This document shows, piece after piece, positions 7,379-35,373 of a DNA stretch of 42,462 bases (the first letter of the stretch is position 1; each line of letters opens with the position of its first letter). The notes beneath the pieces were generated by a model, which was not told the DNA's origin, did no database searches, and was given only the letters and a program-made list of their open reading frames with translations. Both the position numbers and the translations under genes were made by a program. The DNA lies in contig JAHFMR010000002.1 in the NCBI GenBank assembly GCA_023267755.1, forward strand, positions 1 through 42,462, written 5' to 3'. The stretch is from a bacterium. Its GTDB lineage: Bacteria; Patescibacteriota; Minisyncoccia; Phycocordibacterales; Phycocordibacteraceae.

Positions 7379-10300
7379 TCAAAATAAGATATCGTGTCCC
7401 TCCGTTTCATCCTGGAGCATAAGCGAGGAGTCGATATCCGCGAGGAAGGAGGAGGGTTCAGAGTAGGTGTCGCTGCCGTAGATCTTACGTACGCGCGCGA
7501 GAGTGAGGACGAGCCGTTCCTTGGCGCGCGTCATCGCCACATAGAAGAGCCGCCGCTCCTCCTCTTCATCGCGCGCGCTCTCGCCACCCATCCCCTGATG
7601 CGGGAAGAGCCCTTCCTCCATACCGCTCACAAACACCGTGTCGAACTCGAGCCCCTTTGCTGCGTGGACAGTCATCAGCATCACTCCCCGCTTCTCGTTC
7701 GTGTCTCGTCGAGGCGGGTGATCTATCTCGTCTTGGTCTCCCGCGAGCGCCGCTTCAGCGAGAAAGGCGGCTATGGACTCCTTCCCGGCGAGTGTGTCGT
7801 GCCGTGCGGCTACCGACGCGAGCTCCTCCACGTTTTCAAAACGTTCACGGTCTTCTGCACTACCCTCATCGACCAGCGCGCGGCGCATACCGCTCTTCTC
7901 TATCACCAGCTTCACGAATTCAGACGGGATACGTGTGTCGGTAGCGCTGGCGAGCTCGGCGATAACTCGCTCAAAGGCCTCCACCTTAGCGAGCTCGCCA
8001 GCGCGCAACGCTGCACGTCCTCCCGCAGTGAGCTTACCGAGAGTTACTTTACCGATGCCGCGCGGCGGCGCGGCGGCGGCGCGCAGCTTGTCGCTCTCGC
8101 GCGAGGGGTCCATCGCGAGCCGCATCCACGCGAGAGCATCCTTCACCTCCTTACGCGCGAAAAAATGCGTCCCGAGCAGCTTATAGGGCACGCCAGCACG
8201 AAGCAGCCCCTCCTCGAGGGCGCGTGACTGGAAGTTGGTACGGAAGAGGATAGCGATATCTTCTGGCTTAGTACCCGCGCGCATCAGCTCTCTTATCTTC
8301 AGCGCGACCCAACGCGCCTCGTCCTCGGCACTCATCGCGATATGGAGCGTTATGCGCTCTCCTGCCTCACGCGTGGTCGTGGAGTACTTTTCCTTGCGGT
8401 TCTTATTTTTCTCAATGACTGCATTTGCCGCGTTGACCAAATTCTTCGTTGAACGATAGTTCTGCTTGAGAATAATCGTCTGCGACTGGGGATACGTCTT
8501 GTCGAACTCGAGCAGGTTCTCTATCGTCGCTCCGCGCCAGGTATAGATACAATTGTGCGTAACAATGCCATTCGCAATGAAGTTGTGCGTATTCTCGACA
8601 TCCAGATCGTATACTCGTGTCTTCCCCGTACTCACGCGTTCGACTCGAACTACGACATCCCATTTTCCTTCTGCGTCGAACACGGCCATACCCCTTTGTA
8701 CAGATCCAGCGGGAATAAATGGGAGTGAGTTACCATTTCTCGGATTTTTTTTATACCCGCCAAGTCGTGCAGTCCGCACGATAACACTGTCGGGGAAAAT
8801 CTCTCTAAGTGCTCCTACTCGCGATAAGAGTGCGCCGAAGTCTCTATGTGCTGATTCAAATCTCCAGCCTTTAGAAGATTTTGCCGATCTCACAGAGAAA
8901 CCGGCTTTTTTGAGCATCTGCTTCCCGATCACATCACTTCCCGCAACAGAAATGCGATGCATCGGTGTCTTTCCTCGGTGTTCACCACAAAGAGTTACAA
9001 CAATATTGCGTCGACTACTTCGAGTGACTTGTGCACGATGATGCGGATACTCAACTGAAAGCCCCTGATTCTTCAGAAGCTTCCGAGCTCCTTCTCCTGT
9101 ATCGAACGTTAAGAAAATGTTATCTAAGACCCCTTGGTCGTGCACATATCCGCCAACACTTCCTTTCCGCGCGATAAACGGTAATGTTGGGATTGCGTAT
9201 TGAAGTGAGAGCTTATATTCGAGAATACGCGCCTCTTGCTGGGAATCGTGAACGCCAATCACCCATACCGAATCTCCGTGCTCTTGGTTGCATCGCTGTT
9301 GAAATCCGATTGTCGGCCGATATTGTCCTTTTGTATACGTCTGCGAAACGCCGATTCTCCACCCCTTTTCTCGTTTGTGCATGAGATAGGTGAAATGGAG
9401 TTGAGGCGTCTCGCCAAGGCGGTATCCCGCGAAGTGAATATGATCCGGGGTACTCGTGAGTATATTTCCTGTGCGCGTCGTCAGGCAAATCAATTCGCCT
9501 CGCACGCTTCGTGCGGTCGCTCTCGTTACTCGTGCAGGGCGCATATCGCCACTCCCATAATTCGATAGCACGAGATCCCCCTTCTTTAGATTCTCTATCG
9601 CCCGTGTCGATCCTTCAGGCAAGAGTACTTGCGTTCCTGCGACAAGACACTGATCGATATCTCCTACTACAAACACGTTGTGGTGTTTCTCCGCGAGAAT
9701 GTTCGCGAGCCGCCCCTGGAGTGCGTTAGTGTCCTGATATTCATCGATATGGATGTACTTCCATCGATCTTGAGCGAGTGCGCGGATATCGGCGTGTTCT
9801 TCGAGCATCCTGAGCGGGAGAGCGATAAGGTCGTCAAAGTCGAGCGCCTTCTCTGCCGCAAGCGTCTTCTCGTAACGCAGCCACACCTCGGCGACAATCC
9901 GATTACCGAATCCGCTCCGCGCATACTTCTCATAAAACTCACTTGCACGCATCCCCTCACCCTTGGCTCGCGAGATACGCCCAAGCACCGCGCGTGGCGA
10001 AAGCTCTTTGGCACCCACATCAAGCGCTTTGAGCGCCGCGCCAATCGCCTTCTCCGAGTCATCGCGGTCGTACACGCTGAAGAATCGCGGAACCCCAATC
10101 GCTTTGCCATAACTCTCCAGAAGTTCCCGGCCGAGACCGTGGAAGGTAGCGATAAGCGGCACTGTTTTATCATCCCCGAGCATTGCTCGGACGCGCTCGC
10201 GCATCTCCCGCGCCGCCTTGTTGGTGAAGGTGACCGCGAGAATCTCACGCGCCGGTACTCCTTCACGGATTAAATGATAAATACGCGTCGTGAGCACGCG

Positions 10301-10399
10301 CGTTTTCCCGCTTCCTGCACCAGCGAGAACGGAAACAGGGCCGTGCATCGCAAGAACGGAGCGTTTCTGATCTTCGTTCAGGCCTTCGAGATATGTCAC
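7379..10399 (-). CDS. UvrD/PcrA-family SF1 DNA helicase with an in-frame intein
   Basis: LAGAGSGKTRVLTTRI, VTFTNKAAREMRERV, IHIDEYQDTN, VGDIDQ...CIYTWRGA, LKQNYRS, LMTVHAAKGLEFDTVFVSGMEEG. GTG at 10399 (VTYLEGLNEDQ) preferred over the 10417 track start. Confidence 0.92.
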   Translation of the reverse strand: MTYLEGLNEDQKRSVLAMHGPVSVLAGAGSGKTRVLTTRIYHLIREGVPAREILAVTFTNKAAREMRERVRAMLGDDKTVPLIATFHGLGRELLESYGKAIGVPRFFSVYDRDDSEKAIGAALKALDVGAKELSPRAVLGRISRAKGEGMRASEFYEKYARSGFGNRIVAEVWLRYEKTLAAEKALDFDDLIALPLRMLEEHADIRALAQDRWKYIHIDEYQDTNALQGRLANILAEKHHNVFVVGDIDQCLVAGTQVLLPEGSTRAIENLKKGDLVLSNYGSGDMRPARVTRATARSVRGELICLTTRTGNILTSTPDHIHFAGYRLGETPQLHFTYLMHKREKGWRIGVSQTYTKGQYRPTIGFQQRCNQEHGDSVWVIGVHDSQQEARILEYKLSLQYAIPTLPFIARKGSVGGYVHDQGVLDNIFLTFDTGEGARKLLKNQGLSVEYPHHRAQVTRSSRRNIVVTLCGEHRGKTPMHRISVAGSDVIGKQMLKKAGFSVRSAKSSKGWRFESAHRDFGALLSRVGALREIFPDSVIVRTARLGGYKKNPRNGNSLPFIPAGSVQRGMAVFDAEGKWDVVVRVERVSTGKTRVYDLDVENTHNFIANGIVTHNCIYTWRGATIENLLEFDKTYPQSQTIILKQNYRSTKNLVNAANAVIEKNKNRKEKYSTTTREAGERITLHIAMSAEDEARWVALKIRELMRAGTKPEDIAILFRTNFQSRALEEGLLRAGVPYKLLGTHFFARKEVKDALAWMRLAMDPSRESDKLRAAAAPPRGIGKVTLGKLTAGGRAALRAGELAKVEAFERVIAELASATDTRIPSEFVKLVIEKSGMRRALVDEGSAEDRERFENVEELASVAARHDTLAGKESIAAFLAEAALAGDQDEIDHPPRRDTNEKRGVMLMTVHAAKGLEFDTVFVSGMEEGLFPHQGMGGESARDEEEERRLFYVAMTRAKERLVLTLARVRKIYGSDTYSEPSSFLADIDSSLMLQDETEGHDILF
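8552..9649 (-). mobile_element. Intein (366 aa) inserted between GDIDQ and CIYTWRGA of the UvrD-like helicase
   Basis: Starts CLVAGTQVLLPEGSTRAIENLKKGDLVLS (block A), GNILTSTPDHIHF (block B), ends RVYDLDVENTHNFIANGIVTHN followed by Cys+1 (blocks F/G). Boundaries counted residue by residue (257-622 of the track ORF). Confidence 0.93.
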
Positions 10400-10449
10400 T
10401 CTCGAAATATACCCCAAAAACCGCTCTCCACAGGTATAAAACTGCCCGA

Positions 10450-15635: not shown

Positions 15636-15728
15636 AGGTAGCACCACACTACCACGCCTTGTGAAATTGTGCAAGTGTCGCGAAGTTTACTCCAAGTGCG
15701 CACAATATTGGGTGCTACACTACCCTCT

Positions 15729-16646
15729 ATGGACGCAATAGCGGCAAAACGGCAATTCCTAGAGCATATCGAGATTGAGCGCGGTCGCGCGGTGAAGACG
15801 GTCGAGAATTATGACCACTACCTCTCCCGCTACTTCGAGCAGATGCAGGTAAAAAGCGTAAGCGACATCACCGAGCAGAATATCCGCGAGTTCCGCCTGT
15901 GGCTCAATCGCCAGCCCGGCACTAAAAACGACTCGATGAAGCGTCGGACACAGAACTACTATATGATCGCGCTCCGGGCTTTCCTTAAGTTCCTTCGGAA
16001 ACGTGATGTCGAGGCTATCTCCCCCGAGAAGATAGAGCTCGCCAAGCTCCCCGAGCGCCAGATAGACCTGATTACCTCCGCCGAGCTCGAACGTCTGATG
16101 AAAGCGCCGGAAGAAGCGCTCGCGAAGGAGACCAACGAGCACAAGAAGCTCGCCTGCCTGCGCGACCGCGCTATTCTCGAACTCCTCTTCTCCACCGGAC
16201 TGCGCGTCTCCGAGCTCTGCTCGCTCAACAGCGACCTCGATCTCACCCGCGACGAGCTCTCGGTGCGCGGCAAGGGAGAGAAGGTGCGAGTCGTCTTCCT
16301 CTCTGGTGCTGCTAAGGAGTCTGTGCGCGATTACCTGACGGCGCGTAAGGATATGGAGGAGGCACTCTTTGTCGACGGACGACCGGACAAGCTCCATCGG
16401 ATTATCCCCCGCGACGTGCAGCGCCACCTGAAGCGCTACGTCGCCCTCGCTGGCATCACGAGCGTCGTCACGCCCCACACGCTCCGCCACGCCTTCGCCA
16501 CCGATCTCCTCTCAAATGGCGCTGATATCCGCAGTGTCCAGCAGCTTCTCGGCCACGCTTCTATCAATACCACCCAGATCTATACGCACATCACCGACTC
16601 GCACCTGCGCGAGATTCATAAAAAGTTCCACTCGCACAGCCGCTAG
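15729..16646 (+). CDS. Xer-type tyrosine recombinase
   Basis: LLFSTGLRVSELCSLN, HTLRHAFATDLLSNGADIRSVQQLLGHASINTTQIYTHI; start MDAIAAKRQF. Confidence 0.92.
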   Translation: MDAIAAKRQFLEHIEIERGRAVKTVENYDHYLSRYFEQMQVKSVSDITEQNIREFRLWLNRQPGTKNDSMKRRTQNYYMIALRAFLKFLRKRDVEAISPEKIELAKLPERQIDLITSAELERLMKAPEEALAKETNEHKKLACLRDRAILELLFSTGLRVSELCSLNSDLDLTRDELSVRGKGEKVRVVFLSGAAKESVRDYLTARKDMEEALFVDGRPDKLHRIIPRDVQRHLKRYVALAGITSVVTPHTLRHAFATDLLSNGADIRSVQQLLGHASINTTQIYTHITDSHLREIHKKFHSHSR

Positions 16647-30568: not shown

Positions 30569-30634
30569 CTTTATGTACGTCAGGTGTGTACTGCACACGT
30601 TAGTGGAGCCGGCGCACGCTATACTTTACTCTAT

Positions 30635-32383
30635 ATGCACGTTTCGGAGGGAGAGCTGAAAGAATTCATCATCGACTCAGGGCTCGTCGCGAAGAAGGAT
30701 ATCGATGCGGCGGCTGAAGAGGCGAAGACGCGTGGCCAGTCGCTCGGCGATATCCTCGTCTCGCGTGGCTCGCTGACCGAAGACGCACTTCGGCGCATTC
30801 AAGCCTACGTGCTCGGTATCCCGTTTGTAAATATGAAGGAGCACCGCATCCCCACCGACGTGCTCGCTCTCATCCCCGAGCCTATTGCCCGGACGCATAA
30901 CATCATCGCCTATAAGAAAGAGGGGGGCTCACTTGAGGTCGCGATGCTCGACGTCGACGATCTCGCCTCAATAGACTCGGTGCGCAAGAAGACCGGCCTT
31001 AAGATCTTGCCGCGTCTCACCGACACCGACAGCATCAAATCGTCGCTCCTCCAGTATCAGAAGTCGCTTAAGGACGAGTTCGGCGATATTATCTCGGCCG
31101 AAGCGGGGAAGATCCGTGTCATCGCAGAAGGGAATAAGGATCTCTCAGGAGATGATCTCAAGAAAATGGCGGAGGACTTGCCGATTGTGCGCATCGTCGA
31201 CACTCTGCTCCGACACGCTATTGTCCAAGGTGCTTCTGACATCCATATCGAGCCGATGGAGACTGAAGTGCTGGTCCGCTATCGCATCGACGGCATCCTC
31301 CACGATGCGATGACGCTCCCTTCTTCTGCGGCCGCAGGTATCGTCGCGCGCATCAAGGTGCTTTCCAACTTGAAGCTCGACGAGAAGCGCCTTCCGCAGG
31401 ACGGACGCTTCAAGATGGAGACCGAGGCCGAGAAGGTGTCTTTCCGTGTGTCTATCCTCCCCACCTTCTTCGGCGAGAAGACCGTGATGCGTCTCTTGCG
31501 CGAGACAGGGGAGGGCTTCACACTCGACGCGCTCGGCCTCCACGGCGAGAATATGGAGCGCATCCACCACGCGCTCTCGCAGACCACCGGCATCATCCTC
31601 ATCAGCGGACCAACGGGGAGCGGTAAGACCACTACGCTCTACACAATGCTCGATATCCTCAACCAGCCGGACGTAAATATTTCGACCGTTGAAGATCCAA
31701 TCGAATATCAGATGAAGCGAGTGAACCAGACCCAGGTGAACCCGCAGATAGGATTCACCTTTGCAAACGGACTGCGCTCGTTGGTGCGCCAGGACCCGGA
31801 CATCATTATGGTCGGCGAGATCCGCGACAGCGAGACCGCCTCACTCGCTATTAACGCCGCGCTCACTGGCCATCTCGTTCTCTCAACCATACACACCAAC
31901 AGCGCTGCCGGCGCTATCCCACGCTTAATCGATATGGGAGTGGAGCCCTTCCTTCTCGTCTCTACAATCCGCGTTATCGTCGGCCAGCGCCTCGTCCGCC
32001 GCCTCTGCGAGCCGAAGGAGGAGTATGCACTCACCAAGGCCACTCGTGCAAAGGTCGCGGGAGATGAGGATTTCAATATCGCGTTCAAAGCACTCAAAGA
32101 TGAGAAGTTAGTGAAGGAAAGCTCTTCTCTCGACGATCTCGCGTTCTATCGACCAACGCCTTCAGCCGCCTGCGAAGACGGCTACAAGAGCCGTATTGGT
32201 ATCCACGAAGTGCTCGCTATATCGCCCGCTATCCGCGAGGTTATGCTCTCTTCGAGCACGAGCGACGCGATAGAGGGTCAGGCGAAGAAGGAGGGGATGC
32301 TCACGATGTTCCAAGACGGGCTCTATAAAGCAGCGCGCGGTATCACGAGCCTCGAGGAGGTGCTTCGTGCTATCACTGAGTAA
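30635..32383 (+). CDS. pilB: Type IV pilus assembly / type II secretion ATPase (PilB/GspE)
   Basis: ASDIHIEPMETEVLVRYRIDGIL, ISGPTGSGKTTTLYTMLDILN, VEDPIEYQMKRVNQTQVNPQIGFTFANGLRSLVRQDPDIIMVGEIRDSETA. Confidence 0.95.
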   Translation: MHVSEGELKEFIIDSGLVAKKDIDAAAEEAKTRGQSLGDILVSRGSLTEDALRRIQAYVLGIPFVNMKEHRIPTDVLALIPEPIARTHNIIAYKKEGGSLEVAMLDVDDLASIDSVRKKTGLKILPRLTDTDSIKSSLLQYQKSLKDEFGDIISAEAGKIRVIAEGNKDLSGDDLKKMAEDLPIVRIVDTLLRHAIVQGASDIHIEPMETEVLVRYRIDGILHDAMTLPSSAAAGIVARIKVLSNLKLDEKRLPQDGRFKMETEAEKVSFRVSILPTFFGEKTVMRLLRETGEGFTLDALGLHGENMERIHHALSQTTGIILISGPTGSGKTTTLYTMLDILNQPDVNISTVEDPIEYQMKRVNQTQVNPQIGFTFANGLRSLVRQDPDIIMVGEIRDSETASLAINAALTGHLVLSTIHTNSAAGAIPRLIDMGVEPFLLVSTIRVIVGQRLVRRLCEPKEEYALTKATRAKVAGDEDFNIAFKALKDEKLVKESSSLDDLAFYRPTPSAACEDGYKSRIGIHEVLAISPAIREVMLSSSTSDAIEGQAKKEGMLTMFQDGLYKAARGITSLEEVLRAITE

Positions 32384-32388
32384 CTACT

Positions 32389-33603
32389 ATGAAATATCGC
32401 GTCACCATTCAGAAAGAAGGACTTCCCGATGAAAAGCGTGTCATCGAGGCCATCTCACACTTCGCTGTCTACGACCAAGTGCAGAAAGAAGGAGGTGTCG
32501 TCACTGAACTCCAAGAAGGAACGAGTTCTTTCGCCCTTCCTACATGGCTCAATGTAACCATTGGCACTGGCATCAAGCGTGTCGAGGTCATCCGTATGGC
32601 GCGGAATCTCTCCGCGATGCTTGGCGCTGGCCTCTCACTCTCCCACGCACTCTCGGTCATCGAACGTCAATCGGGTAACAAGTACCTTAAGAAGGTCGTG
32701 GGGAGTCTTTCCGGCTCGATTAAGCAAGGGTCGTCCTTCCACGAGGCGCTTGCCGCGTATCCTGCTATATTTCCCGCGTTATTCATCGCGATGACCAAGG
32801 CCGGCGAAGAATCGGGGTCTCTCACCGAAGCGCTTAATACTGTCGGCGTCCAGATGGAGCGCTCAGAAGAACTCACCCGTAAGGTAAAAGGTGCGATGAT
32901 CTACCCGTCGATTGTCGTGATAGCGATTTTCATCGTCGGCATCCTGATGCTCATCTATGTGGTGCCGACACTCACCAACACCTTCAAAGAACTCGGAGTG
33001 AAGCTGCCCCTCACCACTCAGATAATCGTCACTGTGTCCGACTTCATGGCGGCACACGCAATCTTGGTGCTCGGCCTGCTTGTCGCATTCATCGCGAGCG
33101 GCATCGCCTTCATCCGTTCGCGCGTGGGGAACCGCGTAGTGCTTGCCATCTCGCTCCGCCTCCCGGTAGTGGGCGAGCTTGTACGCGAAACCTACACCGC
33201 ACGTGCTTCGCGCACACTCTCTTCGCTCCTCTCCTCGAGCGTGCCGGTGCTTGACGCGCTCGCGATTACCAAAGAGGTTGTGCAGGCCGACAAGTTTGCC
33301 CGCGTTGTCGAAGAAGCTGAAGACCATGTTCGGAAGGGCGAGCTGCTCTCGACGGCATTTTCTGAACACGCGAATCTCTATCCGCTCTTGATGAGCGATA
33401 TGCTCGCAGTGGGGGAAGAGACCGGCAAGGTTGCCGAGATGCTGAAGCAGATTGCCGAGTTCTATGAGAGCGATGTTGCTGAAAAAACCAAAGACCTCTC
33501 GACGATTATCGAGCCCGTGCTGATGCTCTTCATTGGTACGGTCGTCGGCATCTTCGCCGTCTCGATGATTGGGCCTATTTATTCACTCTCATCAGCGTTC
33601 TAA
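32389..33603 (+). CDS. pilC: Type IV pilus inner membrane protein (PilC/GspF)
   Basis: Two GspF domains; FARNLSAMLGAGLSLSHAL-type motif; LSSLLSSSVPVLDALAITKEV; VGEETGKVAEMLKQIAEFYE. Confidence 0.94.
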   Translation: MKYRVTIQKEGLPDEKRVIEAISHFAVYDQVQKEGGVVTELQEGTSSFALPTWLNVTIGTGIKRVEVIRMARNLSAMLGAGLSLSHALSVIERQSGNKYLKKVVGSLSGSIKQGSSFHEALAAYPAIFPALFIAMTKAGEESGSLTEALNTVGVQMERSEELTRKVKGAMIYPSIVVIAIFIVGILMLIYVVPTLTNTFKELGVKLPLTTQIIVTVSDFMAAHAILVLGLLVAFIASGIAFIRSRVGNRVVLAISLRLPVVGELVRETYTARASRTLSSLLSSSVPVLDALAITKEVVQADKFARVVEEAEDHVRKGELLSTAFSEHANLYPLLMSDMLAVGEETGKVAEMLKQIAEFYESDVAEKTKDLSTIIEPVLMLFIGTVVGIFAVSMIGPIYSLSSAF

Positions 33604-33606
33604 TCT

Positions 33607-35373
33607 CTACTTTACGATTGCGTATGTGCCTGGAATAACGGTCCAGGAACCGCCCGGCCCGTTAGAGAAACTCACGTTTTGCAGACCGCTCCTATACGAA
33701 ATGCTTGAATTGTTGCTCAGCTCCAGATATTTCCCCGTCACTTGATTCGCGCTGGCGCCATTCTCGATTTGCACAGTGCCGTACGGCGCGTACAGAATGA
33801 CGCTAGTAGCATTGTTAGAAAGCTCGATTGCGTGCGAGCCTGTATTTGTCGTTATTATCATCGGATAACTGTTCGTCGTCCCGTTGCCGCTGATTGTTAC
33901 ATTGTTTGAGAGATTCACGATTCCCTTAAGAGCCGTATTGCCTGTGGCGTCTGCAATGATAATCGCTCCGCTCGAACCGGTGCTCGGTGAGACACTAAGA
34001 TATGCATTATTCGAAATCGTTACGTTTCCATTCACCCAAAGAGGACCGGACAAGATGAGCTTGGCTCCGTTCGTAACGCTCAAATCCCCGTCTATCTTCT
34101 TCGGACCAAGCGTTTTCGTCCCCGAAACAGAATAGGGTCCCGCAAGCGTCCCTCCCGCCGCCGCGATTGATTCCCAATCCGCAATTTGCGAATCTGAAAT
34201 AGGGAGAGGCACCGGCGCCGCCGGTGCCGTTCCCGGGTGTTTCGTCCCTGAAACACTGCAATTTGAAATCGTCTGATAGGAGGCGTTGCCGCCAATACTG
34301 CAGCTTGAGAGAACACTTGCCCAGACATTCCCTTGCACCGTGACCCCGGAGAGCGAGGTCGCGATGCCGACTACATACAGCATAAAATCGAGATCGCCAG
34401 TAATACTGTTCCACGCCGGGTTTTGCTGATTCCAGTTGCTGCTATATTTCGCCGCTCCTCTCGTGTATCCACCATTGCTGTCCAAACCCCAGATGAAATA
34501 ATTGGTTGCATTCGCCGGAATAGTTGCGATAACCCAGTATGTCTGATTTGCCGTAAGGGAAGGGGTGTTATCGAGCGTCGCGCTGGTGAGACCATATGCC
34601 GTTGTGATAAGTGAGGCAGGGATCGTACCGCTTGCGAGCACGGTGGTGGACGGCTTTCCGGCATTATCGCTCACGATCTTGATAGTCAAATCGCCCGGAT
34701 TACCCGCCTTCTTCAGATTCAGGCTTATCCCTGCAAGGGAGGCGCTCACGGACGGCTTGAATGCTTGCGCGACAGCCGTATGAGAAGCGGTATCACCTAT
34801 GTTGAATGCGCTATTCTGTGTCATCCATTGCTGGTCGGCAGTCGGGTCAACACCGACCGCGACTGTCGCGTCTCCGGTGATAGTGCCGCTCCCCGATATG
34901 TTGCCATTCGCAAATATATTCCCCTGGATGCTCGAACCGTTGCTCATCGTGACGCCGCCATTTCCGATTTGCACGCCATACCGAAACGATACGACGGAAG
35001 AATCGATGCTAGCGCTCGCCTGTACAATCTTCGTCGCAGTCGGATTCGTGCTATTCGGCACATTACCGGTCGCTGTAATGCGTTTCGTATTGCCGTCAAT
35101 GCTCGCGACCGAAATGCTGTAGGTTCCCGCGCCGAGCGATACATTGCTCTCTCCGGAATATGAAGAGTTCTGATTCAGCTCATAAATTGCCTTGTCGATG
35201 CCCGCTTCCGCAAGTGCGCGTGCTTGACTAGAAGCGAGTGCAACTCGTTCTGCGTGCACAGCGCTTCCGAAATAATTGAAGAAGCCGGTTGTTACCGTCA
35301 TAATAATGGAGCTTACGATGAGCGCGAATACGAGAACGGAGCCGCGGGTCGCGTGTGTGGAAAGTGGGGTCAT
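33607..35373 (-). CDS. Large PilX-like pilin-associated protein with choice-of-anchor-R-like and beta-helical regions
   Basis: N-terminus RGSVLVFALIVSSIIMTVTTGFFNYFGSAVHAERVALASSQARALAEAGIDKAIYEL; middle 'VAQAFKPSVSASLAGISLNLKKAGNPGDLTIKIVSD...'; Asn/Gly-rich repeats at C-terminus. Confidence 0.7.
   Translation of the reverse strand: MTPLSTHATRGSVLVFALIVSSIIMTVTTGFFNYFGSAVHAERVALASSQARALAEAGIDKAIYELNQNSSYSGESNVSLGAGTYSISVASIDGNTKRITATGNVPNSTNPTATKIVQASASIDSSVVSFRYGVQIGNGGVTMSNGSSIQGNIFANGNISGSGTITGDATVAVGVDPTADQQWMTQNSAFNIGDTASHTAVAQAFKPSVSASLAGISLNLKKAGNPGDLTIKIVSDNAGKPSTTVLASGTIPASLITTAYGLTSATLDNTPSLTANQTYWVIATIPANATNYFIWGLDSNGGYTRGAAKYSSNWNQQNPAWNSITGDLDFMLYVVGIATSLSGVTVQGNVWASVLSSCSIGGNASYQTISNCSVSGTKHPGTAPAAPVPLPISDSQIADWESIAAAGGTLAGPYSVSGTKTLGPKKIDGDLSVTNGAKLILSGPLWVNGNVTISNNAYLSVSPSTGSSGAIIIADATGNTALKGIVNLSNNVTISGNGTTNSYPMIITTNTGSHAIELSNNATSVILYAPYGTVQIENGASANQVTGKYLELSNNSSISYRSGLQNVSFSNGPGGSWTVIPGTYAIVK

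Follow-up and report, generated by a model that had tools for sequence, protein, structure and literature searches.

A mobile class-1 intein in motif III of a Patescibacteria UvrD/PcrA helicase carries a predicted GIY-YIG-like homing endonuclease

Introduction

Intein homing has been described almost wholly through LAGLIDADG endonucleases and, rarely, through HNH endonucleases. LAGLIDADG enzymes are the usual endonucleases of inteins (PMC5050341). A 2006 survey states that no GIY-YIG member had been found in inteins (PMC1564403), and a split intein gene with a GIY-YIG nuclease located between its two parts has been reported (PMC7891396). Inteins of UvrD/PcrA helicases are themselves already known (PMC5874633). 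Some of those in phage UvrD helicases are annotated as inteins, and the nuclease type is absent from the annotation records examined.

Here we describe an intein that interrupts a UvrD/PcrA-type helicase gene on a Patescibacteria contig, the whole analysed stretch of which (42,462 nucleotides) we call the window. Like the LAGLIDADG inteins PI-SceI, Mtu RecA and the archaeal VMA inteins, it consists of a Hint domain with an insert between blocks B and F; unlike them, its insert has no LAGLIDADG motif, and the first of the two insert domains, domain A, is GIY-YIG-like. Domain A resembles I-TevI, Seg and URI-type GIY-YIG nucleases in its proposed residue order Tyr, x-x-Gly, Arg, Glu and in its modelled β-β-α-β-α arrangement, but differs from them in having Arg in place of the YIG Tyr, a long loop before the following Arg, and a location inside an intein. 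The AceL NrdHF split intein is likewise associated with a GIY-YIG endonuclease (PMC7891396); there, however, the nuclease sits between two pieces of a fractured gene, whereas the proposed one in the window is an in-frame part of a single continuous intein. In the openly accessible papers searched, no description of a GIY-YIG intein in one piece came up, a negative that covers this part of the literature.

The inteins of SPO1-like phages and of Justusliebigvirus (PaulScherrer, JohannJBalmer) resemble that of the window in occupying a UvrD-like helicase and in combining a Hint domain with a YLM...R-x-G insert, and the Justusliebigvirus intein lies at the same GDxxQ/C site. They differ in sequence, being 26–28% identical to the window's intein, and SPO1 has a shorter intein (275 aa), in which most of the second insert domain, domain B, is missing. 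A man-made counterpart also exists: MegaTev is an engineered protein in which the I-TevI nuclease domain is fused to a LAGLIDADG protein. Its layout would match a GIY-YIG plus LAGLIDADG-like insert of the kind proposed below, whose LAGLIDADG-like part is weakly supported, but unlike MegaTev the window's intein is natural.

Results

The host gene encodes a precursor of 1012 aa, predicted to be 646 aa once spliced; besides the Pfam UvrD-helicase match in Table 1 it matches UvrD_C (E 1.8e-67), and TIGR01073 pcrA is its top NCBIfam match. The source genome is a 583-kb metagenome-assembled genome (MAG) in 21 contigs with a completeness of 98.7%, in which the window is contig C19. This was the sole UvrD/PcrA-type gene found in that genome, picked up as its two halves; since motif III belongs to the ATPase core, and since no other gene of the type turned up, we infer, reasonably, that helicase function depends on intein splicing. 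About 5 kb from the helicase lies a tyrosine recombinase gene, possibly XerC/D-like (window 15669–16646, forward strand; Phage_integrase E 4.5e-42). The surroundings are otherwise ordinary, with genes for an rRNA adenine dimethylase, a ComM-like Mg-chelatase and a LysM-M23 peptidase.

Table 1 Features of the helicase gene and its intein, in window coordinates
Feature	Position	Strand	Evidence or remark
UvrD/PcrA-type SF1A helicase gene with in-frame intein	7379..10417	-	Pfam UvrD-helicase E 3.5e-71
N-extein, residues 1-256, last residues GDIDQ	9650..10417	-	
C-extein, residues 623-1012	7382..8551	-	
Cys+1, first C-extein residue	8549..8551	-	Thr, Ala, Asn, Ser or Cys in intein-free relatives
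Intein, 366 aa, residues 257-622 (between Gln256 and Cys623)	8552..9649	-	Intein profiles, splicing residues
Cys1, N-terminal splicing nucleophile	9647..9649	-	Invariant among relatives
Block B TPDH, Thr67-His70	9440..9451	-	Thr67 and His70 invariant
C-terminal splicing blocks F and G, last residues His365-Asn366	8552..8617	-	TIGR01443
Insert domain A, residues 82-172, proposed GIY-YIG-type nuclease	9134..9406	-	hhalign, conserved residues
Tyr88, putative equivalent of the Tyr in 'GIY'	9386..9388	-	
Arg98-Ile99-Gly100, equivalent of 'YIG', Tyr replaced by Arg	9350..9358	-	
Glu144, putative equivalent of the GIY-YIG metal-binding Glu	9218..9220	-	
Insert domain B, residues 173-312, possible DNA-binding module, LAGLIDADG motif absent	8714..9133	-	Models

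Read across the junctions, the frame runs VVGDIDQ / CLVAGTQV...GIVTHN / CIYTWRGA, which places the break in helicase motif III. The interrupting segment matches Pfam Intein_splicing (PF14890; E 4e-13, 49.9 bits against a cut-off of 35.8) and TIGR01443 intein_Cterm (E 3e-9, 36.7 bits against a cut-off of 15.6), and falls 0.2 bits short of the cut-off for TIGR01445 intein_Nterm (24.3 against 24.5 bits). The class-1 residue set is complete (Cys1, T67-H70, H365-N366 and Cys+1), and 12 relatives all keep Cys1, Thr67, His70, His365 and Asn366. An AF2 model of the intein (mean pLDDT 84.8) has Hint strands at both termini, and Foldseek comparison of the whole intein with solved inteins returned gp41-1 (TMt 0.83) and a C. 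thermocellum intein-like domain (TMt 0.82). Relatives of 358–369 aa occupy the same helicase site in independent MAGs; those named in the public collection come from Patescibacteria MAGs, several of which carry the label Kaiserbacteria. The exteins close cleanly at Q/C when aligned with uninterrupted homologues, as the 81 intein-free helicases of the family show no gap at Q/x.

The segment is a class-1 Hint-fold intein with an exact junction at Q/C, and from its conserved residues we predict that the helicase precursor undergoes protein splicing. The original prediction had placed a 366-aa Hint-fold intein with Cys1, TPDH, a terminal His-Asn and Cys+1 in this conserved ATPase-core motif; its coordinates were right to the base, and the residues, intein profiles and extein alignment all bear it out. 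What it missed was the insert of 230 residues, which we read as an endonuclease, and the horizontal mobility of the element.

That insert, between the two Hint halves, spans residues ~82–312 of the 366. We compared domain A with a GIY-YIG profile built from PF01541 and PF10544 matches in the Patescibacteria phylum, using hhalign, whose E-values here refer to a single template. Domain A matched it with a probability of 88.6 (score 35.9), and with 42 sequences the probability was 90.8 (score 38.0); control scores, from 18 slices of the helicase alignment and 60 column-shuffled versions of domain A, were at most 14.4. The match of a Patescibacteria-only alignment was weak (score 18.0, probability 4%).

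Across 20 sequences from bacteria and phages, with identities down to 22%, the invariant positions comprise Tyr88, Gly96, Arg98, Gly100, Arg119, Glu123, Glu144 and a few others, and their order is that of GIY-YIG nucleases: Tyr ... (Tyr to Arg)-x-Gly ... Arg ... Glu. All 20 have Arg98 where the YIG Tyr would stand, and the YIG Gly is invariant. Arg119 is tentatively placed across a long loop. In the insert model, domain A has the order β-β-α-β-α-α, containing the GIY-YIG β-β-α-β-α. Phage GIY-YIG homing endonucleases were among the Foldseek matches of this model at modest E-values (0.02–0.03); GIY-YIG structures were absent from its top 50 matches in the PDB.

A bridging relative, L226, has a textbook GIY-YIG start, VYLMEDKKLGWRIGITNNLKQRL; this related but incomplete intein, which lies in the second helicase of a different Patescibacteria genome, reads YVYLMEDKKLGWRIGITNNLKQRL. 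The sole Pfam match of its domain is GIY-YIG (E 0.002, 18.8 bits), under the curated cut-off of 22.6 bits, which none of the members reaches; the window's own insert has no Pfam endonuclease match. Searches of the insert with Pfam, PHROGs, NCBIfam and hhalign revealed neither a LAGLIDADG nor an HNH endonuclease, and a PDB sequence search with the insert profile gave no meaningful match. Taken together, domain A looks like a divergent GIY-YIG nuclease, as predicted from its profile match and residue order. Pfam matches such as 'Pertussis_S2S3', 'AXH' and 'TY-Chap3' occurred in 1–5 members below cut-off, and we rejected them as chance.

Domain B was modelled in the order α-ββ-α-ββ-α, as in a LAGLIDADG half. 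On another reading, the intein would be of the ordinary kind and its LAGLIDADG endonuclease would have diverged strongly: the two halves of the insert would be decayed LAGLIDADG repeats, and there would be no GIY-YIG domain. Such an enzyme would be the usual one for an intein (PMC5050341), LAGLIDADG inteins lead the Foldseek matches of the whole intein, and LAGLIDADG meganucleases lead the PDB matches of the insert model, albeit weakly (best E 5e-3; I-CreI was aligned over 79 columns with a probability of about 0.57). Against this, a LAGLIDADG motif or Pfam match is absent from 12 inteins and 20 inserts, and hhalign of either half to a LAGLIDADG_3 profile, made in the same way as the GIY-YIG profile, stayed at noise level (probability 0.1–1.3), whereas domain A scored far above its controls against GIY-YIG. 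The helix end before the domain B strands, moreover, has no conserved acidic motif, and EYPHHR stands there instead. We consider a diverged LAGLIDADG endonuclease unlikely; domain B may possibly be a DNA-binding module with a LAGLIDADG-like fold, as its model suggests. EYPHHR(AQ), from residues 200–205 onward (window 9028–9045, reverse strand), is strictly conserved in the bacterial members, and the phage counterparts of this motif have PH-W at most.

A helicase homologue was detected in 104 of the 106 genomes of the family, and we compared 94 helicases, 13 with a complete intein and 81 uninterrupted; a 14th carrier is truncated by a contig edge and stands outside the 13. On a 94-taxon FastTree helicase tree the 13 carriers require 13 changes, at least 11 of them forced by strongly supported branches, and are as scattered as shuffled labels, although change counts by themselves do not separate gains from losses. 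In AU tests, the alignment of the 13 inteins rejected the helicase (extein) topology (p = 5e-62) and that of the 13 exteins rejected the intein topology (p = 7e-4); this conflict between the intein and helicase trees shows horizontal transfer. Carriers L022, L019 and L013 have empty sister helicases of 94.7, 92.4 and 91.0% identity, and none of their inteins exceeds 78% identity with another intein of the set. Conversely, the intein of L021 is 55–58% identical to the others where its helicase reaches just 45–49%. The window's intein has a GC content of 49.4%, against 58.1% in its exteins, and a GC3 of 45% against 67%. The intein is a horizontally mobile homing element scattered in the family, and no relic. 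Codon-level identity profiles revealed no clear co-conversion tracts near the site; one pair had a low-identity patch at codons -15 to -8.

The residue that follows the Gln differs between empty and filled alleles. Among the 81 empty ones it is Thr in 44, Ala in 14, Asn in 11, Ser in 7 and Cys in 5; 12 of the 13 carriers have Cys and one has Ser. A native Ser changed to Cys through the third base, as originally proposed for the window, is wrong: the nearest empty relatives have Thr (ACN), two base changes away from TGY, and others have Ala, Asn, Ser or Cys. Ala and Asn are unfit as the +1 nucleophile in established intein chemistry. Carriers L017, L018 and L021 have close relatives with Ala or Asn at +1 and themselves have Cys or Ser; since Ala and Asn cannot support splicing, these three gained a suitable +1 residue at or before the arrival of the intein. 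Five intein-free helicases have Cys at +1 (L095, L124, L127, L142 and L150), and these could be scars left where an intein was precisely lost, or else sites that an intein could readily invade.

Loss scars of this kind would suit a different history, in which the insert is no longer an endonuclease but a degenerate or regulatory domain, and the intein is immobile, inherited by descent and lost many times; some of the 13 changes on the tree could also be losses. An immobile intein is, however, at odds with the strong conflict between the intein and helicase trees, and the carriers that stand beside Ala or Asn empty alleles imply that the intein arrived. Nor does a degenerate insert agree with the conservation of domain A, which surpasses that of the other parts of the intein (its mean pairwise identity is 77%, that of the Hint domain 64% and that of domain B 61%), with a low dN/dS of ~0.07 that was computed from dS values near saturation. 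We give this history a lower probability still than a diverged LAGLIDADG endonuclease.

Outside the family, nine sampled genomes of the phylum have strong matches over the full length, and in these the extein is interrupted at the same motif; one Rokubacteria MAG also has an intein of this type at this helicase site. The type also extends to phages: Justusliebigvirus and relatives, in which the gene is annotated 'intein-containing UvrD / Rep family helicase'; SPO1-like Bacillus phages, namely SPO1, whose gp34.33 is annotated as an intein, and CampHawk; and huge-phage contigs of 300–536 kb. Among the viral contigs of IMG/VR we found no close relatives of the window's intein, and queries with the SPO1 intein and with L046, from another family of Patescibacteria, had no matches there; a query with the phage alignment did. 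The source genome is a MAG in 21 contigs, yet an assembly artefact or a chance in-frame insertion with no splicing function deserves practically no credence, given the same arrangement in many independent MAGs and sequenced phages, an open frame of 1012 aa and significant intein profiles.

The genome that holds L226 (G220) contains both an intein-bearing UvrD (L045) and this second UvrD-type gene (G220:C21), which has the same kind of intein at GDDDQ/C. L226 ends at a contig end, and a partial match, L227 (G220:C25), which also lies at a contig end, could be its other half. Four Campylobacter phage records of ~146 kb (A150, A145, C3 and A110a; H50-H53) have a helicase intein nearly as similar as that of the Escherichia Justusliebigvirus; the host named for them may be incorrect, or the sequences may be contaminated. 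In a Providencia rettgeri plasmid (L073, 2113-4218), the same insert domain (YLM...RVG) lies within the intein of a DNA-methyltransferase gene with a ParB-like N-terminus, in a region where the plasmid table lists no gene. Unrelated intein-like matches are common in the phylum, with 59 of 380 sampled genomes matching at least the Hint ends (L026-L042, L052-L069). Four C-terminal splicing matches in one 2287-aa frame (G461:C7, ~30583-34635) suggest a protein with several inteins.

Discussion

We think it very probable that this locus is a mobile class-1 intein in motif III whose insert is a homing endonuclease, with a GIY-YIG cutter and a remainder that binds the target. The Hint domain (residues 1-81 and 313-366) would excise itself by means of Cys1, Thr67/His70, Asn366 and Cys+1, and excision would restore GDIDQCIYTWRGA in the helicase, judging from the conserved residues. 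In the 230-residue insert, the homing endonuclease of this scheme, a divergent GIY-YIG domain (Y-L-M ... R-I-G ... Arg119 ... Glu144) would do the cutting, and the 140 residues after domain A probably bind the uvrD target sequence. The endonuclease would cleave uvrD alleles that lack the intein, at the codons of motif III; the repair that follows would insert a copy of the intein and, with it, no less than the +1 codon, so that Thr, Ala or Asn would be turned into a splicing-competent Cys (or Ser). Both DNA cleavage by the insert and the assignment of each job to a domain are predictions from sequence.

A bolder version is possible, and we advance it tentatively as the less probable one: the intein may be a natural chimera, in which a GIY-YIG cutter is joined to a module of LAGLIDADG fold that has lost its catalytic motif and is left with reading DNA, and its lineage may shuttle between huge phages and Patescibacteria by way of the conserved UvrD motif-III site.

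If the intein does carry a GIY-YIG homing endonuclease, this one-piece arrangement would widen the set of nucleases captured by inteins, and Hint domains would seem to accept quite different endonuclease folds. Domain A could also find application as a compact site-specific nuclease. Phages, in which this intein type occupies the same site, are a possible vehicle. Closely related empty and filled uvrD alleles within one Patescibacteria family form a natural series in which homing, +1 conversion and loss can be studied in bacteria whose genomes are very small.
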